NCBI GenBank assembly: GCA_007693395.1
Contig: REDS01000177.1
Span: forward strand, 1 to 37,562
Length of the DNA: 37,562 nt
Direction of reading: 5' to 3'
DNA from: Balneolaceae bacterium
GTDB lineage: Bacteria; Bacteroidota; Rhodothermia; Balneolales; Balneolaceae
This document shows, piece after piece, positions 10,154 to 25,205 of this stretch. Numbering within the stretch: the first letter of the stretch is position 1; the number at the start of each line of letters is the position of its first letter. The translations under genes and the position numbers were made by a program. Under the pieces are notes generated by a model. The model saw only the letters and a program-made list of their open reading frames with translations. It did not search any database and was not told the origin of the DNA.

Positions 10154-11213
10154 AAAAATCTATTCCGTATAGTTGCTGGGTGATGCAATGGATGCTTCCC
10201 TGACCCCAAACCAGATCAGCACAGGGAATTCCTGTCACCTTTCTTTCTGGAAAATATTTTTCGAAAAGGTTAATAGCCTGTTCGTCACAACTTTTATCAT
10301 ACAAGGGAAGCAGAATCACTCCATTGGCAATATAAAAATTGGCATAACTGGCCGGAACATATTCTGACCCATCAACAGTGGTTCCCTCAATCTTTGTTTT
10401 TGGCAGAGGCAGGGTAATAATCTCAAAGGTGTCTCCGTCTATATTTCTCGCACGTTCCAGAATTTCGTAGTTCTCTTGCAATGCGTTGTAATTCACGTCA
10501 TCAGGATCTTCCGAAATCATCGTCAGGATTGTATTTTCACTCAAAAAGCGAGATAAATCATCAATATGCCCGTCTGTATCGTCACCTGCCAGTCCATCCT
10601 TTAACCATATAATCTTTTCAGCACCCAGATAATCAGCCAGATAGGCTTCAATTTGCTCTTTACTGAGTTGAGGATTTCGATTCTTATTCAGTAATACAGA
10701 TTCGGTTGTAAGAAATACACCTTGGCCATTTGTGTCGATGCTCCCTCCTTCAAGCACGATTCCGGGGCTAAATTTTTCGATCTCAAAGGCTTCAGAAAAC
10801 CATCCAGGCAGTGCATTATCAGCATCGTAAGGAGGATATTTTCCACCCCATGCATTATACTCCCAGTCCGTTATAGCAAACTGGTGCTCATTTCTCTTTT
10901 TGATGAAAATTGGCCCGCAATCTCTTGCCCATACATCGTTAACAGGCTTATTGAACAGATGTACTGCAGATAGGTTAACGTTGTGATGACTAAGTTTCTC
11001 AACGATTTTATCGGCATCCGTTTTTGGATCAACGAGAAGAACTATCGGCTCATGAGTATGCAGGGCTTTTATGATTTCAAGGTAAACAGCTTCAACCCGC
11101 TCCAGACGTTCACCCGGCCATGTTTCTCTGTTTGATGGCCAGTGTAATTGTGTTGCTGCATGTGTTTCCCATTCTGCAGGCATGCGATATCCAAGTTCTT
11201 TTGGTGTATTCAT
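10152..11213 (-). CDS. aguA: agmatine deiminase family protein
   Basis: The 353-residue product belongs to the agmatine deiminase/porphyromonas-type peptidylarginine deiminase family, which hydrolyses agmatine to N-carbamoylputrescine and ammonia. Motifs in order: 'MPAEWETHAATQLHWPSNRETWP' (substrate loop), 'NDVWARDCGPIF', 'WEYNAWGGKYPPYD', 'LEGGSIDTNGQG', 'TTESVLLNKNRNP', 'WLKDGLAGDDTDGHIDDLSRF', and the catalytic cysteine near the C-terminus in 'WGQGSIHCITQQ' (Cys343). Length is typical of the bacterial enzyme and there is no signal peptide, so it should be cytoplasmic. Its ATG overlaps the stop of the upstream secreted nuclease gene by the 4 bases ATGA, which implies translational coupling. 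No partner carbamoylputrescine amidase is in the window. Confidence 0.92.
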   Translation of the reverse strand: MNTPKELGYRMPAEWETHAATQLHWPSNRETWPGERLERVEAVYLEIIKALHTHEPIVLLVDPKTDADKIVEKLSHHNVNLSAVHLFNKPVNDVWARDCGPIFIKKRNEHQFAITDWEYNAWGGKYPPYDADNALPGWFSEAFEIEKFSPGIVLEGGSIDTNGQGVFLTTESVLLNKNRNPQLSKEQIEAYLADYLGAEKIIWLKDGLAGDDTDGHIDDLSRFLSENTILTMISEDPDDVNYNALQENYEILERARNIDGDTFEIITLPLPKTKIEGTTVDGSEYVPASYANFYIANGVILLPLYDKSCDEQAINLFEKYFPERKVTGIPCADLVWGQGSIHCITQQLYGIDF

Positions 11214-13807
11214 CGTACCAGTAACATCTTTTTAGTTTTACTTTCACCGCTGTTCAGCTCAACACGGTAAAGATATGTTCCACTGGAGAGATTTCCTGCA
11301 TCAAACACAACGGTATGATTTCCCGCTGTAAATAACCTTCTATCAGTAAGCAGGGCAACTTTTCTCCCCAGAATATCAAACACTTGTATTGTTACCTCAG
11401 CCGGTTCAGAAATTGAAAAGCGAAGGGTTGTAGCCGGATTGAATGGGTTTGGATAGTTTGGTTGCACAGTAAAATTTTCCGGCAATTCGAAATCATCATC
11501 ATTACTACCTGAAAATTGGAATCTTGACCATACAGGGGCATGATCACTCGTAGTGGATATGAAACTCACTATGTAGTTAGGATTTTCTACACGCTGCGAA
11601 CCATCAATATGGTCCTCAATTAATTCATTGGTAACAATAATATGGTCTATCATCGAGCGAAACTGCCCTACAAGATAAGAGGCAAAACCCCGGTCTTCCA
11701 GATTTTTGGTAACGGCATAGTAGTGCTCATCATCAAGAAAAACCTGATAGGGGCTTACTTCTTCATTGTAGGTCGAGAAATTCAGCTGATCGTTAAAATC
11801 ACCAATAAAAATTATGTTATCCTCTCTTCTTTCACTATCGAGGTAAGTTTTTAGCGATGCTGCTGCATTTTGTCTTCGTAAGAACGATTGCCTGTCTCCA
11901 AACGCCTTTGCATGTACATTAAAGCTGGTTATTCTTCGGGTAACACCCTCTATGGTTGCATCAAATTCAAAAAACAGCGGTAATCGGCCGGCCCAGTCAA
12001 ATGATTCCTGTCCATCAGTTAGTAAACCTGCATCAAGCGAATCGATAACCGCAGTTTTGAACAAATATCCTGTTCGCTGGCGCTGAGAATAGTTTGCCAG
12101 AAAACCGCGATAGTCAGGCAAACGATCTACAAGTGTGTTGAACCGATCTACGTTAGTAATCTCTTGAAGGGCATACAGATCAGCATTTATGGTTTCAATA
12201 ACTTCTATTACATTTTCCATTTGCTGATCGGGTTCAGGCCCCCTGTCGTTTGCACCAAACCACTCAATATTCCATGTTACAAGGTCGAAAGTGAGATTAC
12301 GGGGAATATCCTCGCCTTCTATCTCGAAGGGAACTACCTGAAGATCCTGATTATCTCTGGGTTTTAGCTGATAAACCCTGTTAAAGCGGTCTATAACTCC
12401 AGTTATTTTAACCGGTTCATCAGGTACAGGCGCACCAATAAGATCTGTAACCGAATTGCCTATTCTGATCACTCCGCTGCCCGTAGGATCGGCAATGGAA
12501 TAATTTTGATTTCCCTGAAATACCCCTTCTGCCTGGAATGTTACATTTTCAATAGTTACAAGAGCACTTTCAAATTCACCGCTGTTTATCCTGGCGATGG
12601 TTACTACGTCAGGTTCAATCTCACCGGCTTGTCGTTCAGTGATTTCGTAATTAATGGCACTATCGGTATCAGTAACAGCTATCTGTCGAAGAAATGTACC
12701 GGATGTACCACTTATTGGGTTGAATTCGGTAACGGGACCGGTAACCCGAATACGGTCGCCTCTTTCTACATCTGTATGTAAAGGTTCATAAAAGACAGCG
12801 ATAGCGCCAGTATCATCCTGAATAAATACCGGGCCGTTAAATTCATTAGCCACAGTAACCGTACCCTCAACAGTTACCCTTGTACCAAAGGGAACACTTC
12901 TGGTTTGCGATATTGGAATGATCTCATTCTCATCAACAGCAAATGCCAGCATCGTGAGTACAAATTCAGTCTGATCAGGTTCATTCGTTTGAATGACGAG
13001 CTGATCTTCGAACAAACCTCCGGTTTCAGATGAAAATGTAACGTTAAGATCCGCCGATTCTCTTGATTGAAGTGTTTCAGGCAGGCTTTCAGTAACCGAA
13101 AATCCCTCATTGTTCAATAATTGAATTGATGATATTTCAAGATCAGGTAAACCCGTATTCGATAACCTCAGTGTAACTTTACTACTCTGATTAATATTTA
13201 CCGTTTCAAAATTGAGTTCACTGCCTGATTGCAGCTGCTCCTGCCCTTCCCTGACCGTGAGCCTGGGAGTATCAGACAACTCTATGAACGGTTCAATGGT
13301 AACATCATCAATATTAATCCGGTTACCTGAGGCTTTATTAAACCGAAAGCGTACCGGTTCCGCAATGTTCAGTTCCAGAACATAATATTCCAGTGAGTTC
13401 TCTTCGGTAAGCGAAATTGCTTCTCCGGCACTGTACCATGAATTTCCTTCATCTATCGAATAGTAAACCTGAACAGATCCCCCGCGATCTCCGGAAAAAC
13501 CAGAATTAGAACCCCAGAAACTTAGTACACCTGCCCCCTCTTCTGCATCAAATTGCATCTGTAAAAACCCGTCCCTGATGCGTATGGAGCGTTCACCAAA
13601 TTTTCTGTCTCCATCAGCCTGCCCCACAAGAGCATCATCAAGCAGCCACTCTCCGGTTGCAAATGAAACAACTCCCGCTGCATAGGCATTTTTTGAGCCT
13701 GCTTCAAAATCTTCAAAAATCTGTGCCTCAGCACGCAACACAGAGAGCAAAAGAATGAGGCTTGATAACACAACCGTAAATGCAAATGGGTACCTTCTAA
13801 AAATCAT
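11210..13807 (-). CDS. secreted endonuclease/exonuclease/phosphatase protein with T9SS sorting domain
   Basis: The 865-residue product starts with a signal peptide (residues 1-28, ending 'AEAQ'). After it come a beta-sandwich N-terminal part (about 30-175, 'FEDFEAG...DDVTIEPF'), an Ig-like segment (about 180-290, 'LRLSNTGLPDLEISSI...'), and an OB-fold part (about 300-490, 'GTRVTVEGTVTVANEF...IQDDTGAIAVFYEP') of the sort found in YhcR-like nucleases. The endonuclease/exonuclease/phosphatase domain is at about 510-765: 'FDLVTWNIEWFG', 'ADLYALQEI', 'FNVHAKAFG', 'NIIFIGDFND' and 'SDHAPVWSRF', i.e. the Asn, Glu, Asp-x-Asn and Asp-His catalytic set. The last 85 residues ('NYPNPFNPATT...LGRKVAL...SGTYLYRVE...KKMLL') are a type A T9SS C-terminal sorting domain. 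It is likely an exported DNase or phosphodiesterase for scavenging extracellular nucleic acid; the substrate is inferred. Confidence 0.9.
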   Translation of the reverse strand: MIFRRYPFAFTVVLSSLILLLSVLRAEAQIFEDFEAGSKNAYAAGVVSFATGEWLLDDALVGQADGDRKFGERSIRIRDGFLQMQFDAEEGAGVLSFWGSNSGFSGDRGGSVQVYYSIDEGNSWYSAGEAISLTEENSLEYYVLELNIAEPVRFRFNKASGNRINIDDVTIEPFIELSDTPRLTVREGQEQLQSGSELNFETVNINQSSKVTLRLSNTGLPDLEISSIQLLNNEGFSVTESLPETLQSRESADLNVTFSSETGGLFEDQLVIQTNEPDQTEFVLTMLAFAVDENEIIPISQTRSVPFGTRVTVEGTVTVANEFNGPVFIQDDTGAIAVFYEPLHTDVERGDRIRVTGPVTEFNPISGTSGTFLRQIAVTDTDSAINYEITERQAGEIEPDVVTIARINSGEFESALVTIENVTFQAEGVFQGNQNYSIADPTGSGVIRIGNSVTDLIGAPVPDEPVKITGVIDRFNRVYQLKPRDNQDLQVVPFEIEGEDIPRNLTFDLVTWNIEWFGANDRGPEPDQQMENVIEVIETINADLYALQEITNVDRFNTLVDRLPDYRGFLANYSQRQRTGYLFKTAVIDSLDAGLLTDGQESFDWAGRLPLFFEFDATIEGVTRRITSFNVHAKAFGDRQSFLRRQNAAASLKTYLDSERREDNIIFIGDFNDQLNFSTYNEEVSPYQVFLDDEHYYAVTKNLEDRGFASYLVGQFRSMIDHIIVTNELIEDHIDGSQRVENPNYIVSFISTTSDHAPVWSRFQFSGSNDDDFELPENFTVQPNYPNPFNPATTLRFSISEPAEVTIQVFDILGRKVALLTDRRLFTAGNHTVVFDAGNLSSGTYLYRVELNSGESKTKKMLLVR

Positions 13808-21183: not shown

Positions 21184-23298
21184 ATGGCTGCATTTTTTCA
21201 GGGAATTAATCCGGTTCTGCCAATTATTTTTATCACCGGGATTGGAGCCATATCACTCTTTATTGCCTGGTGGACCTACAGCTCTCTCTCCTCAATCCCT
21301 GCACATAAAAAAGGGGCTTTAATTGGCCTGAGGGCTGTTGCTCTATTCATTTTAGTACTGCTTCTGCTTAACCCCTTCATATCAAGGCTCTTTACAGATG
21401 CTGCAAATCAACGGGTTGCAGTTTATCTTGATAACAGCCAGAGCATCACCATAGAGCGGGGTGAATATGATGGACTCAACACATACGGAGAGATTATTGC
21501 AGAGTTTGAGCGCTCGAAAAGCGATGAAATAGAGTTCGATTATTTTCTTTTTGATGATTCCATCACCCGGTCTGATGAGCTCACAGGAACCGGAGTTCGT
21601 ACCAACATAAATAATGTTGTAGAACACCTCCAGGAAAATGAGACAAACTATCTTGGCGCAGTTCTGTTTTCTGATGGCATTATCACACAAGGCAGAAATC
21701 CAATTTTTGCGGCACAAAATCTTTCAGTACCAATTTTTACTGTACCTGTGGGTGATACCACCGATGTTAGAGACATTGCCATTTCTGATGTAGAATACTC
21801 TTCCATAACGTACAGTTTTACATCCCAAACAATACGTGCAGAGATACAACAAACCGGTTATGAAGGCGAATCCGCAACGGTTCAATTCATGAAGTCAGGT
21901 GAATTGATAGAATCTCAAGAGATCGATTTCACTACTGCAGTCAGCAGCCATATAGCCGAATTCTCTTTAGAGTTTAATGAGCCAGGTTTTTTTGATTTTG
22001 AGATCAACGTTCCGCCAAAGGAAGACGAACTTACAGATCAAAATAACCGGTACATCTTCAATATTGAGGTATTGGATGATAAAACAAAGATCCTGTCAAT
22101 TGCCTATGAAGTGCATCCGGATGTAAGTGCAATCCGCAGGTTTATTGCAACAGATCAGCAAAATGAACTCGTTATCTCTACCTGGATAAATGAACAAACC
22201 ATGATTGGTGTGGATCCGCTGAATTTATCAGAAGAACCTGATTTAATTGTTCTGCATGGTTTACCTCCAAACGGGTCGAACGTACTGGAGTGGATAGAAA
22301 ATCAGCAGATACCTGTTCTGTATTTTGCAACTCCTTCTGCTTTCTCACGGCTTGGAGACAGTTCTCTTAGTAACATCATTGGGTTTTATGCAACAGGAAT
22401 TCAGAACCCGATAGATGTGCAGATCTACCATGGTTCCGGCCAAGGCTCGCATTCATTGCTGGAACTTACCCCACAAAATTATCAGCGTTTCCCAATGCTT
22501 CAAACATTCAGGGGAAATTACAGACTCTCCCCTCTTGCTCAACCGCTCATGTTTGCTCTTTTCCAGCGTTCCGAGACAGATATACCTTTGCTTATCGCTG
22601 AAGACACCTCAACACGCCGTAAAGCCGCTGTGAACGCTTTTGGCTGGTACAGGTATCAACAGAGTACTTTGGACGAAGCACAGCAGTTCTACACCCAATT
22701 TTTGTCCAATCTCTTTTCCTGGGCTTCCACCCCGCCCGATCGTCGTACTCTTATGCTTGAGCCAGCAAAACCATCTTTCACAGAGAATGAGAGTGTAGAA
22801 ATCCGTGCAGAACTATTCAATGAATTAGGAGAACCAGAGCCGGAAGCATTTGTTGATATAGAAATTTTTTCGGGCGATAACCCTGAACCTCTGAACAGAT
22901 TCCGGATGAATCACCTGAGGAATGAGATTTACACCGCTGAATTAGGCAATTTTCCTCAGGGGTTATATAGAATTGAGGGAAGAGCTGTAAAAAATGATCA
23001 TGAAATCGGTACTGCCGAAACAAGAGTAAATGTAAGTCAATCGTCTACAGAGTTTTTGAACACGAAAAGAAATGACGATCTGTTGATCTCACTGACTGAA
23101 ATTACCGGTGGCTTATTTATATCAGATGGCGATTATTCCGGCATGAATGAAATGATAACACGCAGAATAGCAGAAGCCGAACTGACTGATACCCGGGAAG
23201 AAACATTTTTCCTCTATCAATCTATTATCTGGTTTTTTGTGGTTCTTACGCTCTTATCAGTTGAATGGCTTTTAAGACGATCTGTATCCCTGCCATAA
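21184..23298 (+). CDS. membrane-anchored VWA-like protein
   Basis: The 704-residue product has two N-terminal membrane helices (about 11-32 and 46-66) and one near the C-terminus (about 678-697), which would hold a large periplasmic domain. After the second helix comes a VWA-type core: 'VAVYLDNSQSI' with a DxSxS metal site (Asp83, Ser85, Ser87), later 'AVLFSDGIITQGRN' and 'VPVGDTTDVRDIAI'. The region about 290-440 ('LIVLHGLPPNGSNVLEWIENQQIPVLYFAT') resembles a glutamine-amidotransferase-like fold, as in membrane proteins of this kind in other phyla. A final beta-rich domain precedes the last helix. It lies 17 bases after moxR. The role is inferred as partner of MoxR in envelope assembly or stress response, with the upstream foldases as context. 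Confidence 0.8.
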   Translation: MAAFFQGINPVLPIIFITGIGAISLFIAWWTYSSLSSIPAHKKGALIGLRAVALFILVLLLLNPFISRLFTDAANQRVAVYLDNSQSITIERGEYDGLNTYGEIIAEFERSKSDEIEFDYFLFDDSITRSDELTGTGVRTNINNVVEHLQENETNYLGAVLFSDGIITQGRNPIFAAQNLSVPIFTVPVGDTTDVRDIAISDVEYSSITYSFTSQTIRAEIQQTGYEGESATVQFMKSGELIESQEIDFTTAVSSHIAEFSLEFNEPGFFDFEINVPPKEDELTDQNNRYIFNIEVLDDKTKILSIAYEVHPDVSAIRRFIATDQQNELVISTWINEQTMIGVDPLNLSEEPDLIVLHGLPPNGSNVLEWIENQQIPVLYFATPSAFSRLGDSSLSNIIGFYATGIQNPIDVQIYHGSGQGSHSLLELTPQNYQRFPMLQTFRGNYRLSPLAQPLMFALFQRSETDIPLLIAEDTSTRRKAAVNAFGWYRYQQSTLDEAQQFYTQFLSNLFSWASTPPDRRTLMLEPAKPSFTENESVEIRAELFNELGEPEPEAFVDIEIFSGDNPEPLNRFRMNHLRNEIYTAELGNFPQGLYRIEGRAVKNDHEIGTAETRVNVSQSSTEFLNTKRNDDLLISLTEITGGLFISDGDYSGMNEMITRRIAEAELTDTREETFFLYQSIIWFFVVLTLLSVEWLLRRSVSLP

Positions 23299-23355: not shown

Positions 23356-24585
23356 TCACCTTCTCTTCATAACAAGCAGAACAATCAAACCAATGATTAT
23401 AGCTATGCTTACAAGAAAAAGTATAAACATCAATCTCGAGCTTGGCTGAGCTGCTTCACCCCAGTTGTTTAATTTGATATCTATTGCTGTAATTTCAGAC
23501 TGTGAAAGAATATTTCCATCCACCAGTGCTTCGCCCCAAGAGGCTTTCACGGTATTATTCCAGAAGTCACGGAAATTTCTATAGATTCTGTAATCTTCTT
23601 CGCTATTGCTTTCAAGGCTAATTTCAATGCCGCCATCAACATAATTATTAAGTGCAGTGTTGAACGTTTGTGGCGAAGTGAAAGGCCCAAGCTGAATATT
23701 ATTTTGATTGAACGCTGTGGTTAAAGAATTCCACAAACGGTTATCTACTGATGCAAGCCAGGCTGCAAGCAGATCTTCTACCTCTTGTTTTGCCTGAACA
23801 GGCCTTTCAGGATCGAACGTATTTACTAAACGTTCTCCGATTCTTTCCCAAACATCACTGAAATATCCGTGCTGGGCACGCATACCAAGATAATCGGGTG
23901 TTTCGAGCGCTGATGACTGATCCGCAACATTTATGTATTCAGCGATAATAGTTTTGATTACCTGGAGAGGGTTATCATCCATTCGTGCTGTTGTTTCAGA
24001 AAGTTCCTCCTGATTGCTTCTGTCCATTGTTTGATATCTCATCAAAAGCTCTGCCAGAAAATCTGACACAAAACTATCACGTAGTTCTATGTTTTGCCTG
24101 TACTGCCTAATGAGTGCAGCCTGCCTGCTTTCGCTTGCAGCAGAACGCTCTATCTGATCCTGAAGATCTTCAGATTCCAATGTCATCTGATTGATACGGT
24201 CTCTGAATACATCCATTTCAGCGGAGAGCTCATCAACTCGTTCGTTCAATTGCTCAATTACCTCATATCGTTCTGCAAAAGCTGCCCTGTTCTCTTCTGC
24301 GCGGTTGACAGAGGCTTCAAACGTATCAGGATATATTGCAGCATTGATTATAGCAGAGTGTTCAGAATATGTATTGCGCAGGGAAACAAGTTCTTGCTGA
24401 AGCTCTTCAAGTTCCTGTGTTGAAACGGCAAGCTCAACTCTTTCATTTAATGCTGCCAGTTCAGCTCTGAAATCTTGCTGTATTTGAAAATCAGACTGCT
24501 GAGCAACAAGTGCGGAACTCGCAAATATGAAAAACAGAGCAAGAAACAGTGTATATGTCTTTAGATATGGATTCTTAAAATTCAT
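23356..24585 (-). CDS. secreted coiled-coil protein with C-terminal membrane anchor, function unknown
   Basis: I do not recognise this 409-residue protein. It has a signal peptide (residues 1-29, ending 'ALVAQ'), then about 150 residues of Glu/Gln/Ala-rich heptad-like sequence (about 35-180, e.g. 'LAALNERVELAVSTQELEEL', 'LNERVDELSAEMDVFRDRIN') suggesting a long coiled coil. A mixed helical domain follows (about 200-370) with Trp-rich spots such as 'VWERIGERL' and 'FRDFWNNTVKASWGEAL'. A membrane helix at about 383-405 ends in the basic tail 'MKRR'. Topology would be periplasmic body with a C-terminal inner-membrane anchor. A strong Shine-Dalgarno AGGAG (24596-24592) sits 6 bases before the ATG and overlaps the last codons of the upstream lipoprotein gene, so the two are surely coupled. 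Confidence 0.7.
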   Translation of the reverse strand: MNFKNPYLKTYTLFLALFFIFASSALVAQQSDFQIQQDFRAELAALNERVELAVSTQELEELQQELVSLRNTYSEHSAIINAAIYPDTFEASVNRAEENRAAFAERYEVIEQLNERVDELSAEMDVFRDRINQMTLESEDLQDQIERSAASESRQAALIRQYRQNIELRDSFVSDFLAELLMRYQTMDRSNQEELSETTARMDDNPLQVIKTIIAEYINVADQSSALETPDYLGMRAQHGYFSDVWERIGERLVNTFDPERPVQAKQEVEDLLAAWLASVDNRLWNSLTTAFNQNNIQLGPFTSPQTFNTALNNYVDGGIEISLESNSEEDYRIYRNFRDFWNNTVKASWGEALVDGNILSQSEITAIDIKLNNWGEAAQPSSRLMFILFLVSIAIIIGLIVLLVMKRR

Positions 24586-24587
24586 TC

Positions 24588-25037
24588 TTATCTCCTCCCT
24601 GTATGGTCAATATTATATGTTTGCCCGGATACACGATCTACAAGTTCAATAAATCTATCGCGCTGATTAAATGCCGGATTACTGATCCCCTGGCTCGAAA
24701 TCTCTATAATTCTCTTCTTTTTCAGTTCACGTTCAGCAGGCTCAAAAACATATACGTTATTGAAACCATCAGCGGTGATAAAGTAATATCCGGCTCTGTT
24801 TCTTATGAGCCTGACCTCATCCACACTTTGCATACCTTCTCTTTCAAGAATTTTGGCAATTGAAAATTTTATCCCAAAACGCTGGTCGTGAACAGTCTGA
24901 TCTGAATCGGGTGTGAGAACACTCTCAATTGATTGTGAGAAATCTACATCCTGTATAACCATGGATGATCCGCATCCCATAGCTGTAAACAGCAGTGCTG
25001 TAATCACAGTAAACGTAGTTATATATTTTGTTAACAT
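24588..25037 (-). CDS. small lipoprotein, function unknown
   Basis: The 149-residue product has a clear lipoprotein signal ('TAMGC', Cys22) and then 125 residues with no family I recognise. Charged beta-like stretches are visible: 'SVDEVRLIRNRAGYYFITADGFNNVYVFEP' looks like a beta-hairpin pair, and 'ERELKKKRIIEI' is strongly basic. It may bind or sense the coiled-coil protein encoded 2 bases downstream; this is inference from linkage only. It is the first gene of a two-gene unit whose promoter would lie in the 168-base gap shared with tadA. Confidence 0.68.
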   Translation of the reverse strand: MLTKYITTFTVITALLFTAMGCGSSMVIQDVDFSQSIESVLTPDSDQTVHDQRFGIKFSIAKILEREGMQSVDEVRLIRNRAGYYFITADGFNNVYVFEPAERELKKKRIIEISSQGISNPAFNQRDRFIELVDRVSGQTYNIDHTGRR

Positions 25038-25102
25038 AATGTTAATTTAGTTTTTAGGTTCATTTAATATAAAGGGATTTACAAAAAAATTGTTCCGAAC
25101 TG

Positions 25103-25149
25103 ACTATATGCATTTGCCTTACAAGCGATTATACATATAGTACTATAAT
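25103..25149. promoter_or_regulatory. inverted repeat with opposed TATAAT hexamers in the divergent region
   Basis: An 8-base perfect inverted repeat (ACTATATG, 25103-25110; CATATAGT, 25134-25141) has a 23-base spacer. A perfect TATAAT lies on the plus strand at 25144-25149 facing tadA, and another on the minus strand at 25133-25128 facing the lipoprotein gene. Neither has a good TTGACA-like partner at 16-18 bases. The arrangement fits two back-to-back promoters with a shared operator, but AT-rich sequence makes chance matches possible. Confidence 0.35.
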
Positions 25150-25205
25150 AACGAATTATTAAATCATTAATTTGCAGTGACTTTCTAAACTTTCGTAACG
25201 CTATA

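Follow-up and report, generated by a model that had tools for sequence, protein, structure and literature searches.

The window analysed here, a stretch of 37,562 nucleotides from a Balneolaceae bacterium, carries two genes on its minus strand that are read one after the other. The first, LP (24588-25037), encodes a 149-residue lipoprotein; the second, CC (23356-24585), encodes a 409-residue protein that is predicted to be exported, all-helical and held in the membrane by its C-terminus. Both open reading frames lie where the original prediction, made from the letters alone, had placed them, and the LP stop codon stands 2 nt ahead of the CC ATG. That prediction also assigned the two proteins to no known family, and neither of them scores above cut-off in Pfam or NCBIfam. 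Taken singly, a lipoprotein and an anchored helical protein are familiar kinds of part, but the open literature, genomes of this phylum, and plasmid, phage and viral collections yielded no family name and no publication for the two together.

LP has the anatomy of a lipoprotein, as was first proposed. Its type II signal peptide (residues 1-21; 24975-25037) leads into a lipobox that ends at Cys22, and a cysteine occupies that column in 93 of 94 aligned sequences. In the same alignment E67, G83 and P121 are near-invariant, the last within a conserved PAFNQR sequence (residues 121-126). In which membrane does LP reside? The surface-export signal of Bacteroidia lipoproteins is an acidic residue after the lipid-bearing cysteine. 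No acidic residue follows Cys22 (CGSSMV), so a signal of this type is not seen in LP. The outer or surface placement that the original prediction gave it is an inference. A passage in PMC5837995 states that the +2 rule for lipoprotein sorting breaks down in Bacteroidetes; LP may therefore sit in the inner membrane.

The AlphaFold2 model of LP, built from eight sequences (pLDDT 81.4, pTM 0.71), is all-beta past a low-confidence N-terminus. A fold search gave no match at E 0.001. Structure comparison (best Foldseek E 0.032) returned mostly propellers, as judged by inspection; FGF-1, one of 50 rows listed, is a non-propeller. Because propellers predominate in this comparison, with a best Z of 7.9, we read LP as two to three predicted beta-propeller blades, an arrangement that at Z below 8 can be a common one according to the tool. 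Sequence searches returned little: against Pfam the window LP finds only Staphopain_pro (E 0.18) and no propeller repeat, the PDB profile search yields a single match (E 1.3), PHROGs yields none, and no relatives were found in plasmids or viral contigs. Family scans of the 44 LP alignment members gave scattered weak, signal-peptide-like matches, for which cut-offs are not displayed; DUF5128, a six-bladed propeller, matches one member (E 0.017). LP resembles BamB and other propeller lipoproteins in its lipid anchor and its tentatively predicted propeller-type fold, but with about two to three blades it makes no full propeller, and the window LP lacks a Pfam match. Small few-blade chains among its structural rows recall the oligomeric partial propellers (6r5y; nvBagel designs).

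CC begins with a hydrophobic segment in the window sequence, and its signal peptide (24502-24585) would be cleaved, by the Q-rule, between Ala28 and Gln29. Directly behind this presumed site Ser31 and Asp32 are kept in 92 and 93 of 94 sequences, respectively. Gln29 itself is present in 44 of 44 rows of alignment A1, but in 55 of 94 at that column phylum-wide; the Q-rule is said, in PMC5837995, not to hold across the whole FCB group. The C-terminal membrane helix and basic end described in the original prediction are found at residues 383-409 (23359-23439): hydropathy over 19 residues reaches up to 3.41 in windows starting at residues 379-391, and a KRR tail follows. The last 14 residues carry a net positive charge in 87 of 94 sequences.

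Between these ends the protein is predicted to consist of helices, which cover most of residues 6-408 in an AlphaFold2 model of modest confidence (pLDDT 74.5, pTM 0.47); residues 6-185 are split into four of them. CC had been credited with a coiled coil of about 150 residues. A clear heptad coiled coil is there, but it measures about 59 residues and lies inside a longer helical region. Family-averaged heptad periodicity is clear at residues 89-147 (24145-24321; period 3.50, p 0.001 with 1000 permutations; p 0.05 from the window sequence alone). Residues 30-52 and 56-84 come near a period of 3.5 (p 0.08 and 0.06), and residues 152-185 show no significant heptad periodicity, both again family-averaged. 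Taken as a single stretch, residues 35-185 peak at a period of 3.40 (p 0.007). Closer to the anchor, residues 206-379 (23449-23970) are predicted to form six helices with conserved tryptophans at W246, W276, W285, W342, W350 and W375.

Searches with CC led mainly to other helical proteins. The fold search found nothing at E 0.001; the best VIA-align match is a designed helical filament protein at Z 10.3, in the range the tool calls common; and the PDB profile search is headed by a designed protein (E 8.7e-5), followed mostly by coiled coils. PHROGs gave weak matches only (best E 0.0063), and no relatives were found in phages. Among the 44 alignment members, matches are scattered, weak and mainly to coiled-coil families (best E 1e-6 in NCBIfam and 4.7e-6 in Pfam, with member cut-offs not displayed). 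One of the models matched deserves comparison. TIGR04211, which we take to combine an SH3 domain, a coiled coil and a C-terminal anchor, as in E. coli YgiM, would by this architecture share with CC a signal peptide, a coiled coil and a single C-terminal membrane helix. Twelve of the 44 members match it at E <=0.01 (best 1.3e-5; cut-off status not displayed), but the window CC scores 18.7 bits against a cut-off of 65, and the match covers the coiled coil only (residues 49-147). Moreover, CC has no SH3 match, carries an additional helical domain and is paired with a lipoprotein. The long-helix bundles of EzrA and spectrin-type repeats offer a second likeness. EzrA weakly matches three of the 44 members, and spectrin and plakin rows reach Z values up to 8.2, a range that the tool calls common for helical models; the window CC, however, gives no EzrA match at E 1 and is predicted to be periplasmic.

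The start of CC is preceded by a Shine-Dalgarno-like sequence, AGGGAGGAG (24592-24600), which lies within the terminal codons of LP. The original prediction called its AGGAG core (24596-24592) exceptional in the window, and so it is: it is the sole SD-like match of at least 5 nt upstream of the 30 window open reading frames inspected, whose starts come from the reading-frame list and may in some cases be wrong. One other of the 30 has a 4-nt match. Across Balneolales loci, matches of at least 5 nt precede CC in 8 of 40 cases and other genes in 6 of 225 (Fisher p 2e-4). The test is approximate, since a script assigned the control starts and the loci share ancestry. In four near relatives (LP 72-89% identical, all ending in TGRR) the site is kept in L106 and absent in L107, L063 and L067. 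High translation of CC, the consequence originally drawn, is unproven because Bacteroidia ribosomes, according to PMC9976891, sequester the anti-SD and mostly do not recognise SD sequences. That text never mentions Balneol- or Rhodothermi-, and the statement may not apply to Balneolales; it also notes that rpsU characteristically has strong SDs in Bacteroidia. A second paper (PMC8710568) reports that Flavobacterium tolerates anti-SD changes that are intolerable to E. coli.

Do LP and CC belong together? Independent distribution, the test that the original prediction had set for its own reading, was not seen. Of 58 relatives, 48 carry LP, and CC is found in exactly these 48; of 392 phylum genomes, 90 carry LP at E 1e-3 and the identical 90 carry CC at E 1e-10 (genome lists compared by eye). 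These 90 comprise 52 Balneolales and 38 genomes in six families outside the window's class, and a separate check confirmed CC in every one of these 38. After the class search we had regarded the pair as restricted to Balneolales, a view that the phylum search overturned. Within the class sample, 85 of 198 genomes have both genes. The raw CC tally there was 89; the four genomes without an LP match were dropped, three of them for short coiled-coil matches (G163, G166, G177) and one, G057, for a weak partial match (model positions 6-77).

Coupling of the two genes, suggested by their spacing in the window, extends to the family: in 93 of 94 loci LP lies ahead of CC, on the same strand and no more than 200 nt away. 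The exception is L083 of G051, in which LP is split over contigs. The 94 loci come from 88 genomes (43 loci in 38 genomes outside the class and 51 loci in 50 Balneolales genomes), with the paired LP pieces in G051 and in G056 each counted as one split gene rather than as copies. In 44 Balneolales loci the distance between the genes ranges from a 4-nt overlap to 68 nt. The closest named CC record, from a Balneolaceae MAG, is 90% identical and has LP adjoining.

The surroundings of the pair are less constant. At 21184-23298 the window encodes a 704-residue protein that finds nothing in NCBIfam and nothing above cut-off in Pfam; its gene adjoins a MoxR ATPase gene, and each of these two genes recurs in 31 of 94 loci. 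An apt-like cluster, c3 (39 of 94 loci), often stands between LP and tadA in other Balneolales, and none is found at 25038-25205 in the window. Outside Balneolales the neighbours vary from family to family. Elsewhere in the window, 11210-13807 encodes a large exported protein whose end, we presume, resembles a type IX secretion sorting domain. Of 198 class genomes, none reaches the cut-off of the model for GldL, a part of the type IX secretion motor, and 6 match it at E 0.001.

Loss and duplication also involve both genes. We inspected the tadA region of 13 genomes that lack the pair, 11 of them Balneolales. In six of these 11 (G031, G038, G041, G046, G097 and G098), by-eye reading of the frames finds neither LP nor CC: the 704-residue neighbour gene ends and tadA follows, with an apt-like gene between the two in five. 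The remaining genomes of the 13 have other or broken tadA surroundings. Conversely, a second LP is present in six genomes (G093, G232, G235, G264, G267 and G338), each time with a CC beside it, although the second CC of G235 is short. Three second copies (L177, L186 and L191) lie between a kinase-like frame, identified by eye, with a response regulator and another regulator. In G275 LP is followed by two CC genes; such a tandem lies at L172:7786-10688.

Trees of the 94 LP and 94 CC sequences tell a similar story. Balneolales separate in both (support 0.963 for LP and 0.986 for CC), and L177, L186 and L191 form a clade in both (0.999 and 1.0); the first copies L168, L185 and L190 form a clade in neither, and L204 and L205 pair in the CC tree (0.76) but not in the LP tree. 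The LP tree has 35 splits supported at 0.9 or above; the CC tree shares 29 of them, and three conflict with a strong CC split. Evolutionary distances of LP and CC give the highest correlation, 0.921 over 27 loci, with a partial correlation of 0.565 given four neighbours; the corresponding values over 49 loci given tadA are 0.896 and 0.804. This covariation of rates is not specific, because the partials given the other three neighbours stay high for LP-surA (0.57), CC-surA (0.537) and CC-vWAlike (0.538). The shared inheritance, loss and duplication of LP and CC lead us to conclude that they very probably do one joint job in the cell envelope.

What is that job? We tentatively propose that LP and CC are two subunits of one envelope complex that most likely serves as a scaffold or tether; their binding and the tether role are assumed. 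CC would be exported by its Sec signal peptide, cut to leave an N-terminal Gln, and would be held in the inner membrane by the helix at its C-terminus. The Trp-rich helical domain of CC would lie near that membrane, the coiled-coil arm would extend into the periplasm, and LP would probably sit in the outer membrane. Sequence or prediction shows the lipobox, the signal peptide and the membrane helix, the helical fold of CC and the beta fold of LP, and the way in which the two genes are inherited, lost and duplicated together. A bolder version, which we consider doubtful, makes the pair a hitherto undescribed bridge across the envelope, in which LP, as a mini-propeller that assembles with itself on the outer membrane, would cap a helical rod anchored in the inner membrane; several lineages of the phylum would use the resulting strut of two proteins. 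That CC spans the periplasm is unproven because its longest predicted heptad helix has only 59 residues, which at 1.5 angstrom each come to about 9 nm.

Two other accounts of a joint job strike us as rather unlikely. In the first, the pair is an envelope sensor: LP would monitor the outer membrane or periplasm and CC would relay its state to a further protein, a separate histidine kinase for example. Response regulators do cluster near the pair in the 43 loci outside the class, accounting for 9 of 85 directly adjoining genes, 3 of the 85 genes one position further out and 6 of the 347 beyond those (frames of at least 240 nt; adjacent versus farther, Fisher p 5e-4), and the second copies L177, L186 and L191 have the kinase-like and regulator flanks described above. 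There are few independent cases, however, because six of the nine adjacent regulators stem from these three orthologous loci. In the Balneolales loci viewed, which were left out of the count, no regulator comes closer than the third position, and the window CC has only about five residues past its membrane helix.

The second account has CC act as an inner-membrane-anchored periplasmic holdase or scaffold that hands clients to an outer-membrane LP, in a BamB-like manner. The structural rows of LP, mostly propellers, include chain B of BamABCDE (7tt2_B, Z 7.0), presumably BamB itself. Among Balneolales loci L068-L107, some of them incomplete, 24 of 40 contain a surA homologue and 17 of 40 the full set of three isomerase homologues, and LP distances covary with surA. 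Yet propellers are common, the Z values fall below 8, and neighbours differ between families outside Balneolales.

It is very unlikely that CC is instead sorted to the surface, with its tail cleaved by an exosortase-type enzyme: its tail has the outline of motif, membrane helix and basic end, and PF09721 exceeds its cut-off in 22 of 40 relatives, the window's genome among them, but CC scores 11.3 bits with VPXXXP-CTERM against a cut-off of 30, and exosortase shows no association with the pair (19 of 35 pair-bearing versus 3 of 5 pair-lacking genomes). Equally improbable are chance neighbours with separate functions, for although gene order around tadA is generally conserved within Balneolales, LP and CC adjoin in six families outside the class despite different neighbours, and second copies arrive as pairs.

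The two-subunit envelope complex remains our tentative reading. To our knowledge, few envelope-spanning systems have been described for such lineages. An envelope unit that belongs to no known family, is strictly paired and turns up in 90 of the 392 phylum genomes sampled is a good target, and the question that it poses is whether these bacteria own a link or an assembly factor between their membranes.
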